Assembly (NCBI RefSeq): GCF_000007345.1
Contig: NC_003552.1
Location: forward strand, 4,526,001-4,590,000
Source of the DNA: Methanosarcina acetivorans C2A
GTDB taxonomy: Archaea > Halobacteriota > Methanosarcinia > Methanosarcinales > Methanosarcinaceae
DNA: 64,000 bases
Reading direction: 5' to 3'
Shown here: positions 6,553 through 58,000 of the stretch, piece by piece
Layout of the letters: the number at the start of each line of letters is the position of its first letter
Numbering within the stretch: the first letter of the stretch is position 1
Notes under the pieces: generated by a model
Seen by the model: the letters and a program-made list of their open reading frames with translations, nothing else
The model's database searches: none
What the model was told of the DNA's origin: nothing
Program-made: the position numbers and the translations under genes

Positions 6553-6712
6553 AAAAAGCATATCCCGGACCCAGCCCTGAAAATCCTCCCCTTTCAGAGC
6601 TAACCGGGACGGAGGAAATAGACTCAAAATTAAAAAACCCTTGTTTTCCGCTAAGAGTTATTAGCTCTCCTGATAAGGATATTCTTTAATAGTCCCGGGA
6701 AAAGTTTATATT

Positions 6713-7507
6713 ATGACAGTGATGGGCATAATCGGCTGCAGGATCTTCGAAGATGAAATTGTCCATGTGCTTACAAACGACCCTGAAGCGGAAAAGATTT
6801 ACATCATAAAAAATGAAGAAAATATAGGGCTCCTGCACAAACTTAAATCCCAGGGGCTTGATCCGGTAGTCCTTCCATTTTATGAATTAAGAACCCACCT
6901 GAAGCAAAGGGACGAGTTCAGCGTCATTGTCCAGCTTCAGGAGATAGGACTCCATACGGACCCTTCCAGGCTCAAAAGCAGAACATATACAAACCTGAAC
7001 CTGATGTCCAGGTTTGCAGACGGGATCCTCCTTTTTTATGGGCTTTGCGGACATGCTTTATCCCGGATGCAGAAAGATTGTTCATTTTTCAGGTGTTCCC
7101 TGAAGCTACTTCAGGACAGGAGCGAAGGCGAACCGTCTCAGCCCCTTGAAGACTGTATTGCAGCAGCCCTCGGAGGCACCTCCCGCTACCGGGAAACCCT
7201 GAAAAAACACAGTGATACCTTTTTCTTAACCCCCATGTGGGCCGTAAACTGGGAAAAAGCTTTCAGGTTGGGAGATAAATCGATCCCGAGTTTTGAATTC
7301 ACCCCTGAAAACATGAGAGAACTCGGATATCGAAAAGTTGCAAAGATTGACACAGGGCTCTCCTATGAACCTGATTTTGAGAAAAAAATTGAAGAATTTG
7401 CACTTAAGTTCGGGTTCGAGGTCATAGAACTTGAAGGCAGTACTGAAATAGCTCAAAAGTCGTACAGGCTAATGAAAAAAATGCTTCTCAATCCGCTCAG
7501 AGCCTGA
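6713..7507 (+). CDS. DUF1638 family protein, paralogue 1
   Basis: This 264-residue protein belongs to DUF1638, common in methanogens and in some anaerobes near methyltransferase and corrinoid genes, but with no proven function. Hallmarks shared with the gene at 8112 are GCRIFEDEI at the N-terminus, LLFYGLCG at the centre, an EDCIAAALGG segment and FLTPMWAVNW. The cysteines of IIGC, GLCG and EDC recur in both copies and look like possible metal or corrinoid ligands; that is inference. It follows the ABC ATPase by 160 bases on the same strand. The start is ATG 6713. Confidence 0.82.
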   Translation: MTVMGIIGCRIFEDEIVHVLTNDPEAEKIYIIKNEENIGLLHKLKSQGLDPVVLPFYELRTHLKQRDEFSVIVQLQEIGLHTDPSRLKSRTYTNLNLMSRFADGILLFYGLCGHALSRMQKDCSFFRCSLKLLQDRSEGEPSQPLEDCIAAALGGTSRYRETLKKHSDTFFLTPMWAVNWEKAFRLGDKSIPSFEFTPENMRELGYRKVAKIDTGLSYEPDFEKKIEEFALKFGFEVIELEGSTEIAQKSYRLMKKMLLNPLRA

Positions 7508-7563
7508 AAAGGTTCTATCCAAAAAGAACCTTAAAAACTTCACTACTTGCGGACTGGCTCTAA

Positions 7564-7785
7564 ATTAGATTGTATCAAAATGGAATTGATTCAAAATTAG
7601 ATTGGATAAAAATTAGATTGGGTCAAATGGGATTGGATAAAAATTAGATTGGGTCAAATGGGATTGGGTCAAAATAAGATTGGGTCGAAATAAGATTGGG
7701 TCAAAATAAGATTGGGTCAAAATAAGATTGGATCAAAATAAAATTGGGTCAAATGGGATTGGATAAAAATGGGACTGGATAAAAA
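7564..7785. repeat. Imperfect tandem array, about thirteen 16-17-bp units
   Basis: Units resemble AAGATTGGGTCAAAAT, with variants such as ATTAGATTGGATAAAA. They run without spacers between the two DUF1638 genes. The most regular part is 7676-7745. There is no coding potential. Confidence 0.8.
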
Positions 7786-8111
7786 ACGATTAGCTTTTTT
7801 GAAATTACCATAAAGAACCTGAAAAATTGTCTTGATGGCATTAGGTCAAGTTATTGAAATGTACCAGATGATTGATCAGTGCATTATTTTAACGCTCAGA
7901 TATATATGGATACACGTAAAATAATAACTGAATATATTTAAATGCCGGCAAATTAAGTTGAATCTTTTTAGGCTTTTTAAAAAATCTGATTTTTAAAGCA
8001 TATTATTTTTAAAAACATTCTTCCGGAGATTACATGGAATCCCTCAGGAGCTGCCCGGTCAGCTTTTCAAAATATGGGAAATAAAGATTTGTACATGCCA
8101 GAGGAGTCTAC

Positions 8112-8918
8112 ATGCCAGTAATGACCATAATAGGGTGCAGGATGTTCGAAGACGAGATAATGCACCTTCTTGAAAACGACCCTGAGATCGGAAAAGTGCT
8201 TGTGGTGGAAAACGAAGACTGCGGCGGGATCATGAGAAAGATGGCAGAAGCGGGAATTGCACATACTGCGCTCCCCCTTGAAGCGATTCCCGAAAAATCC
8301 GCAGGGAAAGGTGAAGGTTTAACCCTGATCATATACATGCTTGAACTTGCCCTCCATGCAATCCCTGAAAACCTCAAAAAAACCGTTTATTCAAAAGTAG
8401 AACTTATGGCGCCCCGCTCGGACGGAGTCCTGCTCTTTTACGGGCTTTGCGGAAACGTGCTCGGGAAAATTGAAGAGGACTTCAGAGCCCTGGACTGCAG
8501 GGTGAGTATCCTGAAAGAAGAGAACGGAGAAATCGTAGACGACTGCATAGGGGCTGTCCTCGGAGGCAGGGGGCACTACCTAGAAGCCCTGAAAAGCTGT
8601 AGAGGCGCAGGGACCTTTTTCCTGACCCCCATGTGGGCCGTGAACTGGAGGGAAATGATCCGGACTGCCGGTCTGAGCCGGAACCCGGATGATATTGAGA
8701 TGTCGAAATTCGTCTTTGACTATGCAGGTTACAAAAGGGTTGCAAGGGTAAATACAGGCCTTGCCTACGAAAAAGACTTTGATGCCCGGGTAAAAGAGTT
8801 CTCTACGCTCTTTGAGTTTGAGGTTACGGACCTCGAAGGGACTCTGCAGCTTGTGGAGAATTGTTATGCAAAAACAAAAGCCTCAATGTTAGAGGCCTGC
8901 CCTCATTCCCAGACCTGA
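8112..8918 (+). CDS. DUF1638 family protein, paralogue 2
   Basis: The 268-residue protein is clearly homologous along its length to the gene at 6713. It shares GCRMFEDEIMHLL, LLFYGLCGNVLG, VDDCIGAVLGGRGHY and FLTPMWAVNW. GAGGAG lies 6-7 bases before ATG 8112. The two genes are separated by about 600 bases holding a 16-bp tandem array, so they are probably transcribed separately. Divergence between them suggests an old duplication with specialised roles. No domain beyond DUF1638 is recognised. Confidence 0.83.
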   Translation: MPVMTIIGCRMFEDEIMHLLENDPEIGKVLVVENEDCGGIMRKMAEAGIAHTALPLEAIPEKSAGKGEGLTLIIYMLELALHAIPENLKKTVYSKVELMAPRSDGVLLFYGLCGNVLGKIEEDFRALDCRVSILKEENGEIVDDCIGAVLGGRGHYLEALKSCRGAGTFFLTPMWAVNWREMIRTAGLSRNPDDIEMSKFVFDYAGYKRVARVNTGLAYEKDFDARVKEFSTLFEFEVTDLEGTLQLVENCYAKTKASMLEACPHSQT

Positions 8919-18729: not shown

Positions 18730-19599
18730 ATGAGTGATAAGATGAATATTTTAACGGATAAGATTTCACAATTTATCAATACCTACTACCTGGATCCCAT
18801 TAAGGGCGATGAAGGGTATAATCTTGTAAATACCTTTACCTGGGCAATCGTACTGGGCATCTGTATTTTCGGGATTTTCAAGCTCCTCAAAAAGCTGGAA
18901 GTAAAAATAACCCCCGAGTTTATTCTCTCAATCCTGCCATTCGTACTTGCAGGCTCTTCTCTGCGCGTGCTTGAAGATTCCCCTGCCGGCATCTTTCACC
19001 CCCCGTTCTCCTATTTGCTTATAACCCCGAATATTTATTTCCTGGTTTTCGGGGTAACCGTAATCTGCCTCTGGCTCTCAATCAGGCTGCAGAAAGCAGG
19101 GTTTGTGGAAGATTATCATCCCGTGTTCGCAGGCTTCGGGCTGGTATGGTTTTTCTTAAACCTTGGCGTTCTTCTACATTATGAAAATGTCGTCGCCGCG
19201 TACGTTCCGGTCTTTGTTATCGGAGTGGGAACAGGACTGACCCTTGTCTTTTACCTGGTTGCCCGTCACTTTAAGTCCGCGATCTTTACCAACCCCCTGA
19301 ACCTCTCAATCCTGCTCGCCCATATGATGGATGCTTCTTCGACATACATAGGAATAGAGAAACTGGGATACTTTGAAAAACACGTGCTTCCATCTTATCT
19401 CATTGAACTTACGGGTACCGCATTGGTTATGTATCCGTTGAAGCTAATTATCTTCGTAGGGGTTATTTATGCACTTGATACCCAGTTTGAGAAAGATGAG
19501 GAGTCCGAAAACCTGAAGATGCTTATCAAGATGGTTATTTTGATCCTCGGGCTTTCTCCGGCAACTCGAAACACAATTCGAATGATGCTGGGAATCTGA
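18730..19599 (+). CDS. DUF63 family multi-spanning membrane protein
   Basis: The 289-residue protein has about seven or eight hydrophobic helices, beginning with TWAIVLGICIFGIFKLL and FILSILPFVLAGSSLRVLED and ending with ILGLSPATRNTIRMMLG. It matches DUF63, an archaeal integral membrane family of unknown activity. The AHMMDASSTYIGIEKLG helix with a buried Asp is the most conserved signature and recalls the Asp helix of the small DUF5658-like protein at 4.8 kb. ATG 18730 or the in-frame ATG four codons later could be the start. A SpoIIM-like membrane gene follows on the same strand. Confidence 0.83.
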   Translation: MSDKMNILTDKISQFINTYYLDPIKGDEGYNLVNTFTWAIVLGICIFGIFKLLKKLEVKITPEFILSILPFVLAGSSLRVLEDSPAGIFHPPFSYLLITPNIYFLVFGVTVICLWLSIRLQKAGFVEDYHPVFAGFGLVWFFLNLGVLLHYENVVAAYVPVFVIGVGTGLTLVFYLVARHFKSAIFTNPLNLSILLAHMMDASSTYIGIEKLGYFEKHVLPSYLIELTGTALVMYPLKLIIFVGVIYALDTQFEKDEESENLKMLIKMVILILGLSPATRNTIRMMLGI

Positions 19600-20752: not shown

Positions 20753-21916
20753 ATGATTGATAGGAAAGAAATTAAGGAAATCGTTGAAGGTTATTACGCA
20801 CATGCTGATAAGATTAAAGTGGGGACAATTGCCTCTCACTCGGGACTCGACATCTGCGATGGAGCAGTTGAAGAAGATTTCAGGACCCTTGCAGTCTGCC
20901 AGGCAGGCAGGGAGAAGACTTACACCGAATACTTCAGGGCTCAGAGAGACCCCTACGGGAAGATAAAGAGGGGAATTGTCGACGAGACAGTTGTCTATAA
21001 GAAGTATAACGAAATCCTCCTGCCCCAGAACCAGCAGAAACTGGTTGACGAAAAAGTGCTTTTTATCCCTAACCGCTCTTTTACCTCCTACTGCAGCATC
21101 GATGAGATTGAAGATAATTTCAGAGTGCCCATGGTAGGGAGCAGGAACCTCCTCAGGAGCGAGGAGAGAAGCGAACAGCAGAGTTACTACTGGATACTTG
21201 AAAAAGCCGGGCTTCCGTTTCCGGAAAAAATCGAGTCTCCCAAAGACATTAACGAGCTCGTAATGGTAAAGCTTCCCCATGCCGTAAAGAAACTCGAAAG
21301 AGGCTTTTTCACGGCATCAAGTTATAAAGAGTACCAGGAAAAATCCGAAGCCCTTATAAAGCAGGGGGTTATTACGCGCGAAGCTCTTGAAAATGCCAGG
21401 ATCGAGCGGTATATTATAGGCCCTGTGTTCAACCTTGATATGTTCTACTCCCCTATAGAGCCAAAAATGAGCAAACTGGAACTCCTTGGCATTGACTGGC
21501 GCTTTGAGACCAGCCTTGACGGGCATGTAAGGCTCCCTGCTCCCCAGCAGATGGCTCTTGCCCCGCACCAGCTCACTCCGGAATACACGGTCTGCGGGCA
21601 CAACTCGGCAACTCTTCGTGAGTCTCTCCTTGAAAAGGTATTCGAAATGGGAGAAAAGTATGTGAAAGCCACTCAAGAGCATTACGCCCCCGGAATTATA
21701 GGACCTTTCTGCCTGCAGACCTGTGTGGACAAGGACCTGAATTTCTATATTTATGATGTGGCCCCGAGAGTCGGCGGCGGGACCAACGTGCACATGTCAG
21801 TCGGGCATTCCTACGGCAACTCCCTCTGGAGAAGGCCGATGAGTACGGGCAGAAGGCTTGCCTTTGAGATCAGGCGCGCTCTGGAGCTTGAGAAACTTGA
21901 TATGATCGTCACATAA
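20753..21916 (+). CDS. purP: PurP-family ATP-grasp ligase (FAICAR synthetase-like, probable PurP2 type)
   Basis: PurP makes FAICAR from AICAR, formate and ATP in archaeal purine synthesis. The 387-residue protein has the family order: GTIASHSGLDICDGA, PNRSFTSYCSIDEIEDNF, VPMVGSRNLLRSE, VKLPHAVKKLERGFFTASS, RIERYIIGPVFNLDMFYSP, GPFCLQT and the C-terminal metal-binding RVGGGTNVHM. The loop that in canonical PurP reads PGARGGRGYF is here PHAVKKLERGFF and lacks the glycine-rich ATP clamp. This places it with the divergent PurP2-like group, whose reaction is less certain. An additional AQRDPYGKIKRGIVDET insert follows the first domain. It is a lone gene upstream of the translation operon. Confidence 0.8.
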   Translation: MIDRKEIKEIVEGYYAHADKIKVGTIASHSGLDICDGAVEEDFRTLAVCQAGREKTYTEYFRAQRDPYGKIKRGIVDETVVYKKYNEILLPQNQQKLVDEKVLFIPNRSFTSYCSIDEIEDNFRVPMVGSRNLLRSEERSEQQSYYWILEKAGLPFPEKIESPKDINELVMVKLPHAVKKLERGFFTASSYKEYQEKSEALIKQGVITREALENARIERYIIGPVFNLDMFYSPIEPKMSKLELLGIDWRFETSLDGHVRLPAPQQMALAPHQLTPEYTVCGHNSATLRESLLEKVFEMGEKYVKATQEHYAPGIIGPFCLQTCVDKDLNFYIYDVAPRVGGGTNVHMSVGHSYGNSLWRRPMSTGRRLAFEIRRALELEKLDMIVT

Positions 21917-24735: not shown

Positions 24736-25609
<874 letters not shown>

Positions 25610-25630: not shown

Positions 25631-25780
25631 ATGGCAGTAAAAGATTACTATAAAGTCCAGGGCGACTCCGTAACCAGACTCAAACAGTTCTGTCCCAGAT
25701 GCGGACCCGGTGTATTCCTTGCCGACCACAAAAACCGCCTTGCCTGCGGAAAGTGCGGCTACACCGAATTCAAGAAATAA
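25631..25780 (+). CDS. rps27ae: 30S ribosomal protein S27ae
   Basis: A 49-residue zinc ribosomal protein. It starts [18 protein letters not shown] and has two Cys pairs, CPRC and CGKC, for one zinc ion, ending GYTEFKK. This is the archaeal S27a without the ubiquitin fusion of eukaryotes. It closes the aIF2-gamma operon and is followed after 37 bases by a perfect hairpin that probably ends the transcript. Confidence 0.95.
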
Positions 25781-25817: not shown

Positions 25818-25837
25818 CCGCAGGAGTTTTCCTGCGG
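25818..25837 (+). terminator. Hairpin after the S27ae gene
   Basis: CCGCAGGA-GTTT-TCCTGCGG, a perfect 8-bp stem with a 4-base loop. It is followed by CTTCTTTCATT, a pyrimidine-rich tail suitable for archaeal termination. Confidence 0.6.
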
Positions 25838-25870
25838 CTTCTTTCATTCACGTCCTCCTCCGGAGGAAAG

Positions 25871-25980
25871 TCTATCAAACTTTTCTTTAAAATCGATCAA
25901 ACTTTTCTTTAAAATCGATCAAACTTTTCTTTAAAATCGATCAAGCTATTCTTTGAAGTCTATCAAACTTTTCCTCACAC
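25871..25980. repeat. Tandem repeat, five 22-bp units
   Basis: Five 22-bp units begin TCGATCAAACTTTTCTTT (first and last units TCTATC). The middle units are identical and units four and five are diverged. The array sits just past the end of the ribosomal operon. Confidence 0.85.
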
Positions 25981-26200
25981 GCTCAGATACCACCATTAAA
26001 TATTCGAGCCCTTTCTTTTCGATTTTCAACAATTCAACAGCTTTTTCACGGAGCTACCGCAGGGCTCCTTTCAATATTTATATATTTTCAGACCCTAATT
26101 ATTTATTGCACAAAAGATTATTAAGTCATATTTTGAGGTTATAACCATGCAATAATTTATCTATTTTGTATGCTAATTTCTATTAATAAGTAACATCTCA

Positions 26201-26210: not shown

Positions 26211-26296
26211 ATTTTTGAGAATATCTACGGGACATCTACGGAATGACTGACATCAGATAGCGGACAGGCGCTATTTTGCAAGGAGGAGGATAAAAT

Positions 26297-26479
26297 ATGC
26301 CTGAGGAAAGTGCGAAAACAAAAATCGTCAGAGTAAAGAATATTCACATAAAAAACCTGAAAGTAAAGGGCCTGAGACCAAAACCTCTTATTATAAAGAA
26401 CCTGAATTTAAAGGACGTCAGGAAAGCAAAGGGGGTAACATGTCAGAGAAAAACACAAGAAAGAAAAGCATCACAATAA
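26297..26479 (+). CDS. Small basic protein with IKNLK-type repeats, first of an overlapping paralogous pair
   Basis: A 60-residue, Lys-rich protein not matched to any family. AAGGAGGAGG lies 7 bases before the ATG, one of the best ribosome binding sites in the window, so real translation is likely. The core reads VRVKNIHIKNLKVKGLRPKP, then LIIKNLNLKD, an alternating hydrophobic/basic pattern around repeated IKN/IKNL triplets and a central KGLRPKP. The same pattern recurs in the gene starting at 26440, which overlaps its last 40 bases in another frame. The last 15 residues (VTCQRKTQERKASQ) come from the overlap and look unconstrained. There are no membrane segments. Function unknown; nucleic-acid or polyanion binding is a guess from charge alone. 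Confidence 0.7.
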   Translation: MPEESAKTKIVRVKNIHIKNLKVKGLRPKPLIIKNLNLKDVRKAKGVTCQRKTQERKASQ

Positions 26480-26601
26480 AGGACTCGGACATAAAAAACT
26501 TTAAAATAAAAGGTCTGGGGCCAAAACCCTTTCTCATAAAGAACCTGACCATAAGAAATTTCAGGCTTATCTTCAAACTCCCACCGGAAAAGAAAGAGTA
26601 G
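26440..26601 (+). CDS. Small basic protein, second of the overlapping paralogous pair
   Basis: A 53-residue protein in a different frame from its partner. It starts at ATG 26440 directly after GGGGGT, inside the 3' end of the first gene. Its core, ITIKDSDIKNFKIKGLGPKP, then FLIKNLTIRNF, aligns residue for residue with the first protein (IKN-[FL]-K-[VI]-KGL-x-PKP and IKNL). A tandem duplication therefore made this coupled pair. It ends FRLIFKLPPEKKE. It was recognised by translating the overlap and by its similarity to the neighbour; no family is known. Confidence 0.68.
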   Translation: MSEKNTRKKSITIKDSDIKNFKIKGLGPKPFLIKNLTIRNFRLIFKLPPEKKE

Positions 26602-54880: not shown

Positions 54881-54937
54881 AGCCGTGAGCAGATATATTT
54901 CACACAAATAATTTAAGAAGAGAACTCCGGGGGGAAT

Positions 54938-57900
54938 ATGCAATCTCTTTACGCCAGAGCCTGGTATAGTAAAGCCCTTGCCCTTTTGAACCTGAAAAAT
55001 CCAATAGAGTCAGAGAAAAATTTTGAAAAGGCTCTTGAAGCTTTCGATGCCCTGCTTGAGATAAATCCTCAGGACACGATTGCCTGGCAATATAAAGGAA
55101 ACATACTGCGTTATCTGGACCGGCCTGAGGAAGCTCTGGAGGCCTTTGAAAAGGCTCTTGCTTTTGACCCGGATAATGTTTCTGCCCGCTATTTTAAGGG
55201 GCTGACTCTGGGGTACCTGAACCTTCCCGAGAGAGCTCTTGAGGCTTTCGAGAGGGTGCTTGAAAAAGATCCTGAACATTCAGGAGCTCTTTACTACAGC
55301 GGGCTTGCCTTAAACCAGCTCGGGAAGCATACCGAAGCTGCTTCAGCCCTCTCGGGAGCCCTTGAAATAAATCCCGAAAATCCAGGGGCCTGGTATTACA
55401 GGGGGGAGTCTCTCTACATTCTGGGAAAGAGTGCAGAAGCTCTTAAAGCCTTTGAAGAGACCCTGGCGCTGGAACCCTCGCATGCAGGGGCATGGGAAGG
55501 TAAGGCAAAAGCATACCTTTCCCTGGGGAGGAAGAGGGAAGCTTTGAAGGCAAGTGAAAAGGCTTTGAAACTTAAACCTTCTTCTGCAGAGGCATGGGAA
55601 ACTCAGGGAAAAATTATGGAAAGCATCGGGAAAAAAGAAGAAGCACTTGGAGCTTTTGAAAGAAGCCTTGTGCTTGAGCCCATGAATGCAGGAAACGTGA
55701 TGGAAAAAGGCAAGTTACTCGGAAGCCTGGGGAGGTATGAGGAAGCTCTTGAAGCATTTGAAAGTTCACTCTGGATGGACAGTTCTCTTAGCGAGGCAAA
55801 GATCAAACGGGGAAAAACCCTGCTTGCTCTTGGAAACTTTCAACAGGCGCTTGACTCATTCAGGAAAAACCTTGAAGAGGACCCGGAAAATTTCGAAAAC
55901 TGGGGTGGGACAGGCAGCTGTTTCCTTGCCTTCGGAAAATATTACGAAGCAATGAAAGCTTACGAAAAAGCCCTCTCCATCGAACCTGAAAACAGCTGCA
56001 TCATGAGCGGGATCGGGGAAATTTATTATCAGCTTGGAGATTATTCCAGAGCCCTGGAGGCATTTGAGCAAGCTCTGAGGCTTGACATCGAAAACGGCTT
56101 TGCCTGGAACGGGAAAGGAAATGTGCTCTGCAAGCTCGGGAAGTACCAGGAAGCCCTCGAAGCTTATGAGAGCCTCCTTACACTTGATTACGAAAGCCTG
56201 CCTGCCCGCTACAACCGCGGAGTTGCCCTCTCCAAGCTTAAAGCCCGGCAAAAGGAAGAAGAAAAAACTCTTGAAAACAAGCTACAGGCGGCATTTAAGA
56301 AATACCTTGAGCTGTCCGGGAAGCTCCCGGAAGATAAAATAGGGGCTGAAGGCTGGAAATACAGAGGGCTTGCTTTTGCCGAGCTAGGGGAATATAAAGA
56401 AGCACTTCAAGCTTTTGACAGGGCAGCGAGATACAGTTCAGGGGATGTCTATCCCCTGGCCTGCCTGGGAATTACCCTCATATGTCTCGGGGAATATGAA
56501 GAAGCACTTCAAGTGTTTGAGCAGGCAGAGGAACTTTTTTACGCAAGCGTAGGCGCAGAAAAAACCGGGGAGCCCGGGGAAGAAAGAGAAGCGGAAATGT
56601 CCTGGACTCTGGATGCTGCCGAGAAAAAGCCCGTGCTGGAAAGGCTCAGGACCGCGAAAGGTTTTGCCCTTGACGCACTCGGGAGGTATGAAGCCTCCCT
56701 AGAAGCATTTGAGAGTGCCAGAAAGCTTTCGGGAAACGGAAAAATCGCCTGTTCCGGAAAAGGTCTTGTTTTTGTACACTGCGAAGAATGGAAAAAAGCC
56801 CTGGAAGCTTTTGATACGGTCCTTATCTTCGATCCGAAAGATACCCCTGCTGCGGTAATGAAAGCCTTTGCCCTGATAAGATTTCAGGAGTTTGGGAAGG
56901 CTATCGAGGTCCTCGAGAGGGTCACAGCAGAGGATAAATGCCCTGATCTTTCCTCCTGCCTGCTGGGCTTTGCCTGTGCCAGACAGGGAGATTTTGATAG
57001 GGCCCTGAAGGCTTACAGGAAAGCAATTGAAGCAAACCCGAAAAACATTCATGCCAGGAACGGGCTTGCAGAAATTTACTTCAGGCTAGGGAACAGCAGG
57101 GGAGCCTTAAAAGAGCTTGAAGCTTCAATTGCAGAAGCCCCGGAAAACGCGTTTTCAAGGAACCTGAAAGGCAGGGTTGAACTTGAAGAACAGGCATATG
57201 AAGACGCTCTTGAGTCCTTCGGGCTGGCGCTTGCCCTGGATCCGGAAGACCAGAGGCTCCTGCTCTGGGATACATATGCCAGGTACATGTATGCAGAGGC
57301 TTCTTTTGAGGGAAACAATGCACGTTTCAGGCACATGCTCCTTGCAGCTGCCGGAAAACTCGAAAAGGCGACCATCTGCCAGACCCCCGCAGATAACGAA
57401 CTGAAGGCTTACGCCCTGTACTTCCTGGGCCTTTTTTACTGCAAGGCCCATTACTTCCGAAAAGCATCCGAAAGACTCGAAGAATGCCTGAAGCTCGAAA
57501 ATTCCCGGAAGGTACAACAGTCTGCATCCCTCCTCCTTAAAAACATCCGGACAGGTCGTCCGGGATCGGCCTGGTGGGAGTGGTGGCTTGCTCCGGGAAC
57601 CCACGAGACTCTTAAAAAAGCAGGCTTCGGACTAATTTTCCTATCGGTCTTCAGCCTGCTGCTGTCCCATCCCGCAGCCTCAACCCTGCCCCTTATATCC
57701 TGGCCTGCATCCGTTATAAGCCAGATTTTTTACCCGGCCGGGGAAAACAGTGCCTTATGGGCACTTTATGGGGAAGAGTATCTGATCTCGATTCTGATTC
57801 TGTTCACCCTCCTGTTCCTCCCGGCGTTCAGGCTCGGCAGGCCGGAAAAAGAAGAACTTGAGCTTGAAACGTTTACCCCGCCACCTCCTGAATTTGACAT

Positions 57901-58000
57901 CCCCGCATCCGTTCTGGAAGAGTTTACGGAAAGACTTGAAAAAAACCTGTTCTCTCCGGAACCCATGAAAGAAAGTGTGAAAAAGCTAGGGAAGTTTTGA
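54938..58000 (+). CDS. Large TPR-repeat protein with C-terminal membrane segments
   Basis: The 1020-residue protein has about 20 or more tetratricopeptide repeats over residues 1-880, with the standard pattern (for example AWYYRGESLYILGKSAEALK and ALEAFEKALAFDPDN). TPR arrays are protein-protein scaffolds. Near residues 905-930 (FGLIFLSVFSLLLSH) and 955-980 (YLISILILFTLLFLPAF) are two membrane helices. The short tail LEEFTERLEKNLFSPEPMKE probably faces the cytoplasm with the repeats. A helix-breaking, acidic insert separates repeats around residues 540-555 (AEKTGEPGEEREAEM). GGGGGGA lies about 5 bases before ATG 54938. No partner can be named. Confidence 0.88.
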   Translation: MQSLYARAWYSKALALLNLKNPIESEKNFEKALEAFDALLEINPQDTIAWQYKGNILRYLDRPEEALEAFEKALAFDPDNVSARYFKGLTLGYLNLPERALEAFERVLEKDPEHSGALYYSGLALNQLGKHTEAASALSGALEINPENPGAWYYRGESLYILGKSAEALKAFEETLALEPSHAGAWEGKAKAYLSLGRKREALKASEKALKLKPSSAEAWETQGKIMESIGKKEEALGAFERSLVLEPMNAGNVMEKGKLLGSLGRYEEALEAFESSLWMDSSLSEAKIKRGKTLLALGNFQQALDSFRKNLEEDPENFENWGGTGSCFLAFGKYYEAMKAYEKALSIEPENSCIMSGIGEIYYQLGDYSRALEAFEQALRLDIENGFAWNGKGNVLCKLGKYQEALEAYESLLTLDYESLPARYNRGVALSKLKARQKEEEKTLENKLQAAFKKYLELSGKLPEDKIGAEGWKYRGLAFAELGEYKEALQAFDRAARYSSGDVYPLACLGITLICLGEYEEALQVFEQAEELFYASVGAEKTGEPGEEREAEMSWTLDAAEKKPVLERLRTAKGFALDALGRYEASLEAFESARKLSGNGKIACSGKGLVFVHCEEWKKALEAFDTVLIFDPKDTPAAVMKAFALIRFQEFGKAIEVLERVTAEDKCPDLSSCLLGFACARQGDFDRALKAYRKAIEANPKNIHARNGLAEIYFRLGNSRGALKELEASIAEAPENAFSRNLKGRVELEEQAYEDALESFGLALALDPEDQRLLLWDTYARYMYAEASFEGNNARFRHMLLAAAGKLEKATICQTPADNELKAYALYFLGLFYCKAHYFRKASERLEECLKLENSRKVQQSASLLLKNIRTGRPGSAWWEWWLAPGTHETLKKAGFGLIFLSVFSLLLSHPAASTLPLISWPASVISQIFYPAGENSALWALYGEEYLISILILFTLLFLPAFRLGRPEKEELELETFTPPPPEFDIPASVLEEFTERLEKNLFSPEPMKESVKKLGKF

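Follow-up and report, generated by a model that had tools for sequence, protein, structure and literature searches.

The DNA analysed here, referred to below as the window, is a stretch of 64,000 nucleotides from Methanosarcina acetivorans C2A (positions 4526001-4590000, within one contig of 5,751,492 bases). Downstream of rps24e and rps27ae, it contains two short open reading frames, ORF A (26297-26479, 60 codons) and ORF B (26440-26601, 53 codons), as recorded in the ORF list of the window. Sizes and positions are those given by an earlier sequence-only reading, which had described an overlapping pair of homologous, basic small proteins, each preceded by a ribosome-site-like sequence; both of these sequences are also present. 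The features of the locus are the following:

25304-25609, plus strand: rps24e, conserved upstream neighbour (Pfam S24e, E 4.4e-32)
25631-25780, plus strand: rps27ae, conserved upstream neighbour (Pfam S27a, E 1.1e-22)
25818-25837, plus strand: terminator-like hairpin between rps27ae and the A/B pair (2 such sites found versus 1.2 expected in shuffles)
26156-26178, plus strand: conserved upstream element TTTATCTATTTTGTATGCTAATT (the TTTTGTATGC element), common to the A, C and D genes of relatives
26280-26289, plus strand: putative ribosome-site-like sequence of A, AAGGAGGAGG
26297-26434, plus strand: gene A, conserved part (46 codons, MPEESAKT...KDVRKAKG); the 45-46 aa orthologues of genomes G118, G008 and G003 stop here with TAA
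26431-26435, plus strand: GGGGG run, one base longer than in G118 (GGGG) and than the AGAGG/GAGG form of G008 and G003; source of the apparent overlap
26431-26436, plus strand: ribosome-site-like sequence of B, GGGGGT (AGAGGT in relatives)
26435-26479, plus strand: unconserved C-terminal run-on of A, VTCQRKTQERKASQ, then a stop; reached by a frame change, it lies in the DNA of B in the other frame and is absent from all relatives
26436-26438, plus strand: TAA, by sequence comparison the A stop codon in relatives, here out of frame and one base 5' of the B ATG
26440-26601, plus strand: gene B, 53 codons, with seven pentads at residues 11-45; kept in Methanosarcina and two sister genera (pS 0.49, pN 0.087)

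Also between rps27ae and the pair, a 22-base unit, AAAATCGATCAAACTTTTCTTT, is repeated in tandem 4.9 times (window positions 25867-25973).

As the sequence-only reading had noted, the two ORFs overlap by 40 bases in different frames in the window sequence. In the three other species with an intact pair (G008, G003 and G118), however, A has 45-46 codons and finishes with AGG/GGG-TAA, a single base separating its stop from the B ATG, and the junction, GGTAACATG (TAACATG), is non-overlapping. The window reads AAAGGGGGTAACATG at this point versus AAAGGGGTAACATG in G118 and AAAGAGGTAACATG in G008 and G003. Because of this one extra G, the A stop is out of frame in the window and A runs on for 14 residues through the first codons of B; the resulting tail, VTCQRKTQERKASQ, is B DNA read in another frame and is present in no relative. 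The overlap is not conserved between species, and since a one-base change accounts for it, neither the 40 bases nor the “different frames” are a property of the family. On this comparison, the overlap is not supported as an evolved feature: it is the effect of a single-base insertion particular to the window genome, the extra G being either a sequencing error or a natural slip, i.e. a true mutation of the strain. The usual architecture is that of two adjacent, non-overlapping cistrons, probably in a tight operon, where the end of A supplies the ribosome site of B. A and B would probably be carried by one short mRNA yielding two related, strongly basic small proteins of 46 and 53 aa. The A stop normally touches the ribosome site and start of B, and this spacing suggests that translation of B follows that of A through re-initiation or coupling; the two genes are probably translationally coupled. 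One base in a G run can thus create a false overlapping-gene architecture that masks a normal operon.

A and B are paralogues. Both carry the pattern IKN-[LF]-K-[VI]-KGL-x-PKP followed by IKNL, and their local BLOSUM62 alignment scores 108, whereas 2000 shuffled alignments averaged 25 (sd 5.2) and reached 59 at most. With a family profile, members, whether intact or degenerate, were detected in 21 of the 31 Methanosarcina genomes as well as in two sister genera, and nothing convincing was found outside these among 238 genomes of the class. Judged by this search, the family is restricted to the Methanosarcinaceae. The A+B pair was found in G000, G003, G008 and G118, and G018 has an A-like gene that continues into what is left of B. 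B, which is the more widely kept of the two, lies mostly downstream of rps24e-rps27ae, alone or with A. Two further types of copy were observed: C, an A-like copy that precedes a methyltransferase gene in G021, G019 and G011 and is broken in G013, and D, a shorter, eroding copy in seven Methanosarcina genomes, frame-shifted in G022. In a tree of the family, all B sequences group together (95/95), as do all D sequences (100/97), and the position of A beside B is weakly supported; the underlying alignments are short, making the order of duplication indicative at most.

No relative of the family was found in Pfam, NCBIfam or the PDB, as the sequence-only reading had anticipated in stating that no known family fits, and PHROGs returned weak, scattered matches only. 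Searching Pfam with 20 family members at E 1 gave nothing except single unrelated matches, the family profile had no PDB sequence match up to E 10, and no viral relatives were found in IMG/VR. A scan of GTDB contigs returned one named relative, Methanosarcina sp. 2.H.T.1A.6. Four weak matches in other genomes were rejected as homologues: L080 is a DNA repeat, and L078, L079 and L081 come from reading pentapeptide-repeat genes in the +1 frame. In these three, that frame stays open over 112-219 codons, giving LTLK[GE] repeats. A and B are members of a lineage-specific small-protein family, apparently uncharacterised and unnamed in the libraries searched.

Codon-level comparison points to proteins as the products. 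Purifying selection is strong on B (pS 0.49 and pN 0.087 across five independent pairs, Fisher p about 4e-29) and weaker on A (pS 0.22, pN 0.089, two pairs, p 0.01). The sequence-only reading had looked to homologues in close relatives and to synonymous bias as the means to decide whether the duplicated pair makes real products, and both are found: homologues occur in Methanosarcina and in two sister genera, and the bias is seen in both genes. Confinement of the homologues to the Methanosarcinaceae together with this bias marks the family as lineage-specific, and with the good ribosome sites these results argue for real products. Given the weak selection on A and the decay of C and D copies in several species, A may be in the process of being lost. 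The family is absent from complete genomes and its copies decay, which indicates that it is dispensable rather than essential.

The block upstream of A, TTTATnnnTTTTGTATGCnAATT, is common to the C and D genes, which are located at another chromosomal position. The upstream element has a single exact match in its own genome, and among the 31 Methanosarcina genomes each of its five exact matches precedes a family gene. This resembles a private promoter or regulatory element that moved along with the gene. As exact matches occur only at family genes, with one in the genome itself, the element was rejected as the sign of a regulon. The loci with B only have a different private block, GGAAAACCGTTTATTT...AATATTATATTTA, found only at such loci. 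On one contig of G013 (C58; L012/L043), a transposase-like ORF is present between the upstream element (21052-21074) and the broken C copy (19170-19319).

Four other explanations were weighed. The least credible takes A and B for open frames that arose by chance in AT-rich intergenic DNA. Their short length and their absence from family databases would fit, but their conservation and paralogy, the synonymous bias, the ribosome sites and the orthologous arrangement together make this reading hardly conceivable, and for B it is already refuted. It is also improbable that the overlap is functional, i.e. that the extended C-terminus of A is real and selected in M. acetivorans. Such a reading would draw on an ORF that stays open for 14 further codons and on a tail as basic as the rest of A; however, the tail is in no relative, A stops one base before B in three species, and a single-base change in a G run is the commonest kind of slip or sequencing error.

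The main product of the locus might instead be a regulatory RNA made from a conserved promoter, with the peptides secondary or decaying. This could be argued from the D copies, where the second half is gone and the upstream element is preserved better than the protein. We consider this unlikely: B has a strong codon-level signature, the block upstream of B loci is a different one, the locus has no significant Rfam family match, and the D copies come from closely related species, so that their upstream identity may reflect mere recency. About as unlikely, or slightly more so, is a role of A and B alongside a TPR-repeat protein, the gene of which follows B in many genomes. At most B loci, those of the two sister genera among them, this gene lies downstream of B and in the same orientation. 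However, the neighbourhood of rps27ae and the TPR gene also exists without A or B in G117, G116, G004, G002, G014, G015 and others, and the link to the TPR gene is therefore positional. Moreover, in the window 28 kb of other genes intervene, the TPR gene (54917-58000) being located behind large PKD-type surface-protein genes. These very large PKD/PQQ-type genes occupy 27226-53632 on the minus strand, between the pair and the TPR gene. As the TPR gene is nearby in most relatives, this block looks like a lineage-specific insertion or rearrangement. We thus favour the reading of A and B as a real, conserved, Methanosarcinaceae-limited paralogous pair, with a probability of about 0.9; when translational coupling is included, the account is still likely, though with less assurance.

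What might the two proteins do? Both are strongly basic (pI 10.9 for A and 10.5 for B), and B has no cysteine. Family proteins consist of about seven pentads of the form L-x-[IV]-K-[N/D/G], as seen in residues 11-45 of B: ITIKD SDIKN FKIKG LGPKP FLIKN LTIRN FRLIF. Autocorrelation of the protein sequences at lag 5 gave z values of 2.3-5.1 in 17 of 17 members tested, which are related and hence not independent. AlphaFold, provided with 20 family members, predicted a two-stranded beta hairpin for B (residues 7-23 and 31-47; pLDDT 74, pTM 0.34), while A was poorly predicted (pLDDT 56). A Foldseek search with the B hairpin returned no match in the PDB. The approximately seven pentads of each chain may form a long beta hairpin or pentad sheet, which would set the hydrophobic residues and the lysines apart. 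Because a lone hairpin of such composition probably needs partners, we infer that the chains associate, either A with B or B with itself; once assembled, they could use their lysines to bind a polyanion (RNA, DNA or the ribosome) or an acidic protein. A role as a non-essential, oligomerising accessory protein that binds a polyanion or an acidic partner is what we put forward, but only tentatively.

A further possibility is that the family was born from a 15-base tandem repeat and then duplicated into a coupled pair. Family DNA still shows 15-base periodicity, with autocorrelation at lag 15 giving z values of 1.6-3.7 over codon shuffles in all but one of the members. In G015 and G021 (L019, L117, L129), a 15-base minisatellite located between dnaJ and a trkA-like gene has the unit CTGAGTATTAAGAAT, which encodes LSIKN and is close to the family unit CTGAnnATAAAGAAC (Lx[IV]KN); these arrays came from the family-profile search, so their likeness is selected. 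Arrays of 15 bases are common in the window genome (14 rows in 400 kb), as are minisatellites of many unit lengths, and none of the 15-base arrays sampled there reads Lx[IV]K[N/D]. The pentad pattern also arises from pentapeptide-repeat genes in the +1 frame. A general link between the family and minisatellites was rejected, since no sampled array fits and the outside pattern matches that were inspected were mostly unrelated coding sequence. We regard such an origin as unlikely; if true, a minisatellite would have given rise to a gene in an archaeon, with the duplication into a coupled pair coming later. Two other repeats were recorded. In G119 (L035), a 15-base minisatellite of 8.6 near-perfect copies, reading FSIDN on the coding strand, begins immediately downstream of gene B, no more than about 60 bases from its stop. 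Elsewhere in the window, two similar adjacent ORFs at 6677-7507 and 8085-8918 (MGIIGCRIFEDEIVHVL... and MTIIGCRMFEDEIMHLL...) form a tandem duplication with a repeat array between them (7555-7785).

For genetically tractable methanogens, the pair provides a small-protein family that lends itself to testing, with two paralogous mini-genes that are under selection and one of which has a co-travelling upstream element. Among known proteins, those with pentapeptide repeats share with A and B the period of five and a hydrophobic residue at every fifth position. However, their pentads are of the type A-[D/N]-L-x-x, and are recognised by Pfam, whereas A and B have only about seven pentads, of the type L-x-[IV]-K-[N/D/G], without a Pfam match. 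Pentapeptide-repeat proteins fold into a right-handed quadrilateral beta helix; the model of B, of moderate confidence (pLDDT 74, pTM 0.34), is a hairpin and A is poorly predicted, so that the fold may differ. Weak profile matches do fall on Methanosarcina pentapeptide-repeat genes, in their +1 frame (LTLKG versus ANLKG).

Other parallels come from M. mazei, where Ribo-seq shows that many small, unannotated ORFs are translated, several of them conserved only in Methanosarcina or Methanosarcinaceae (PMC11456600). These sORFs resemble A and B in being short, stand-alone, conserved only within Methanosarcina or Methanosarcinaceae and without an assigned function; the text of that study describes no tandem paralogous pair adjoining rps27ae. 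Two small proteins characterised in M. mazei, MtrI and MtrR, regulate the Mtr complex. MtrI has 68 aa, is helical and carries a cobalt-binding cysteine, and its structure is solved (PMC12774963); MtrR is described as a hydrophilic, uncharged protein of 49 aa (PMC13370731). By these descriptions A and B are unlike either, with their pI of 10.5-10.9, a B devoid of cysteine and no PDB match up to E 10. MtrI and MtrR are nevertheless lineage-specific, non-essential small proteins of Methanosarcina, and they show that such proteins can be accessory regulators.
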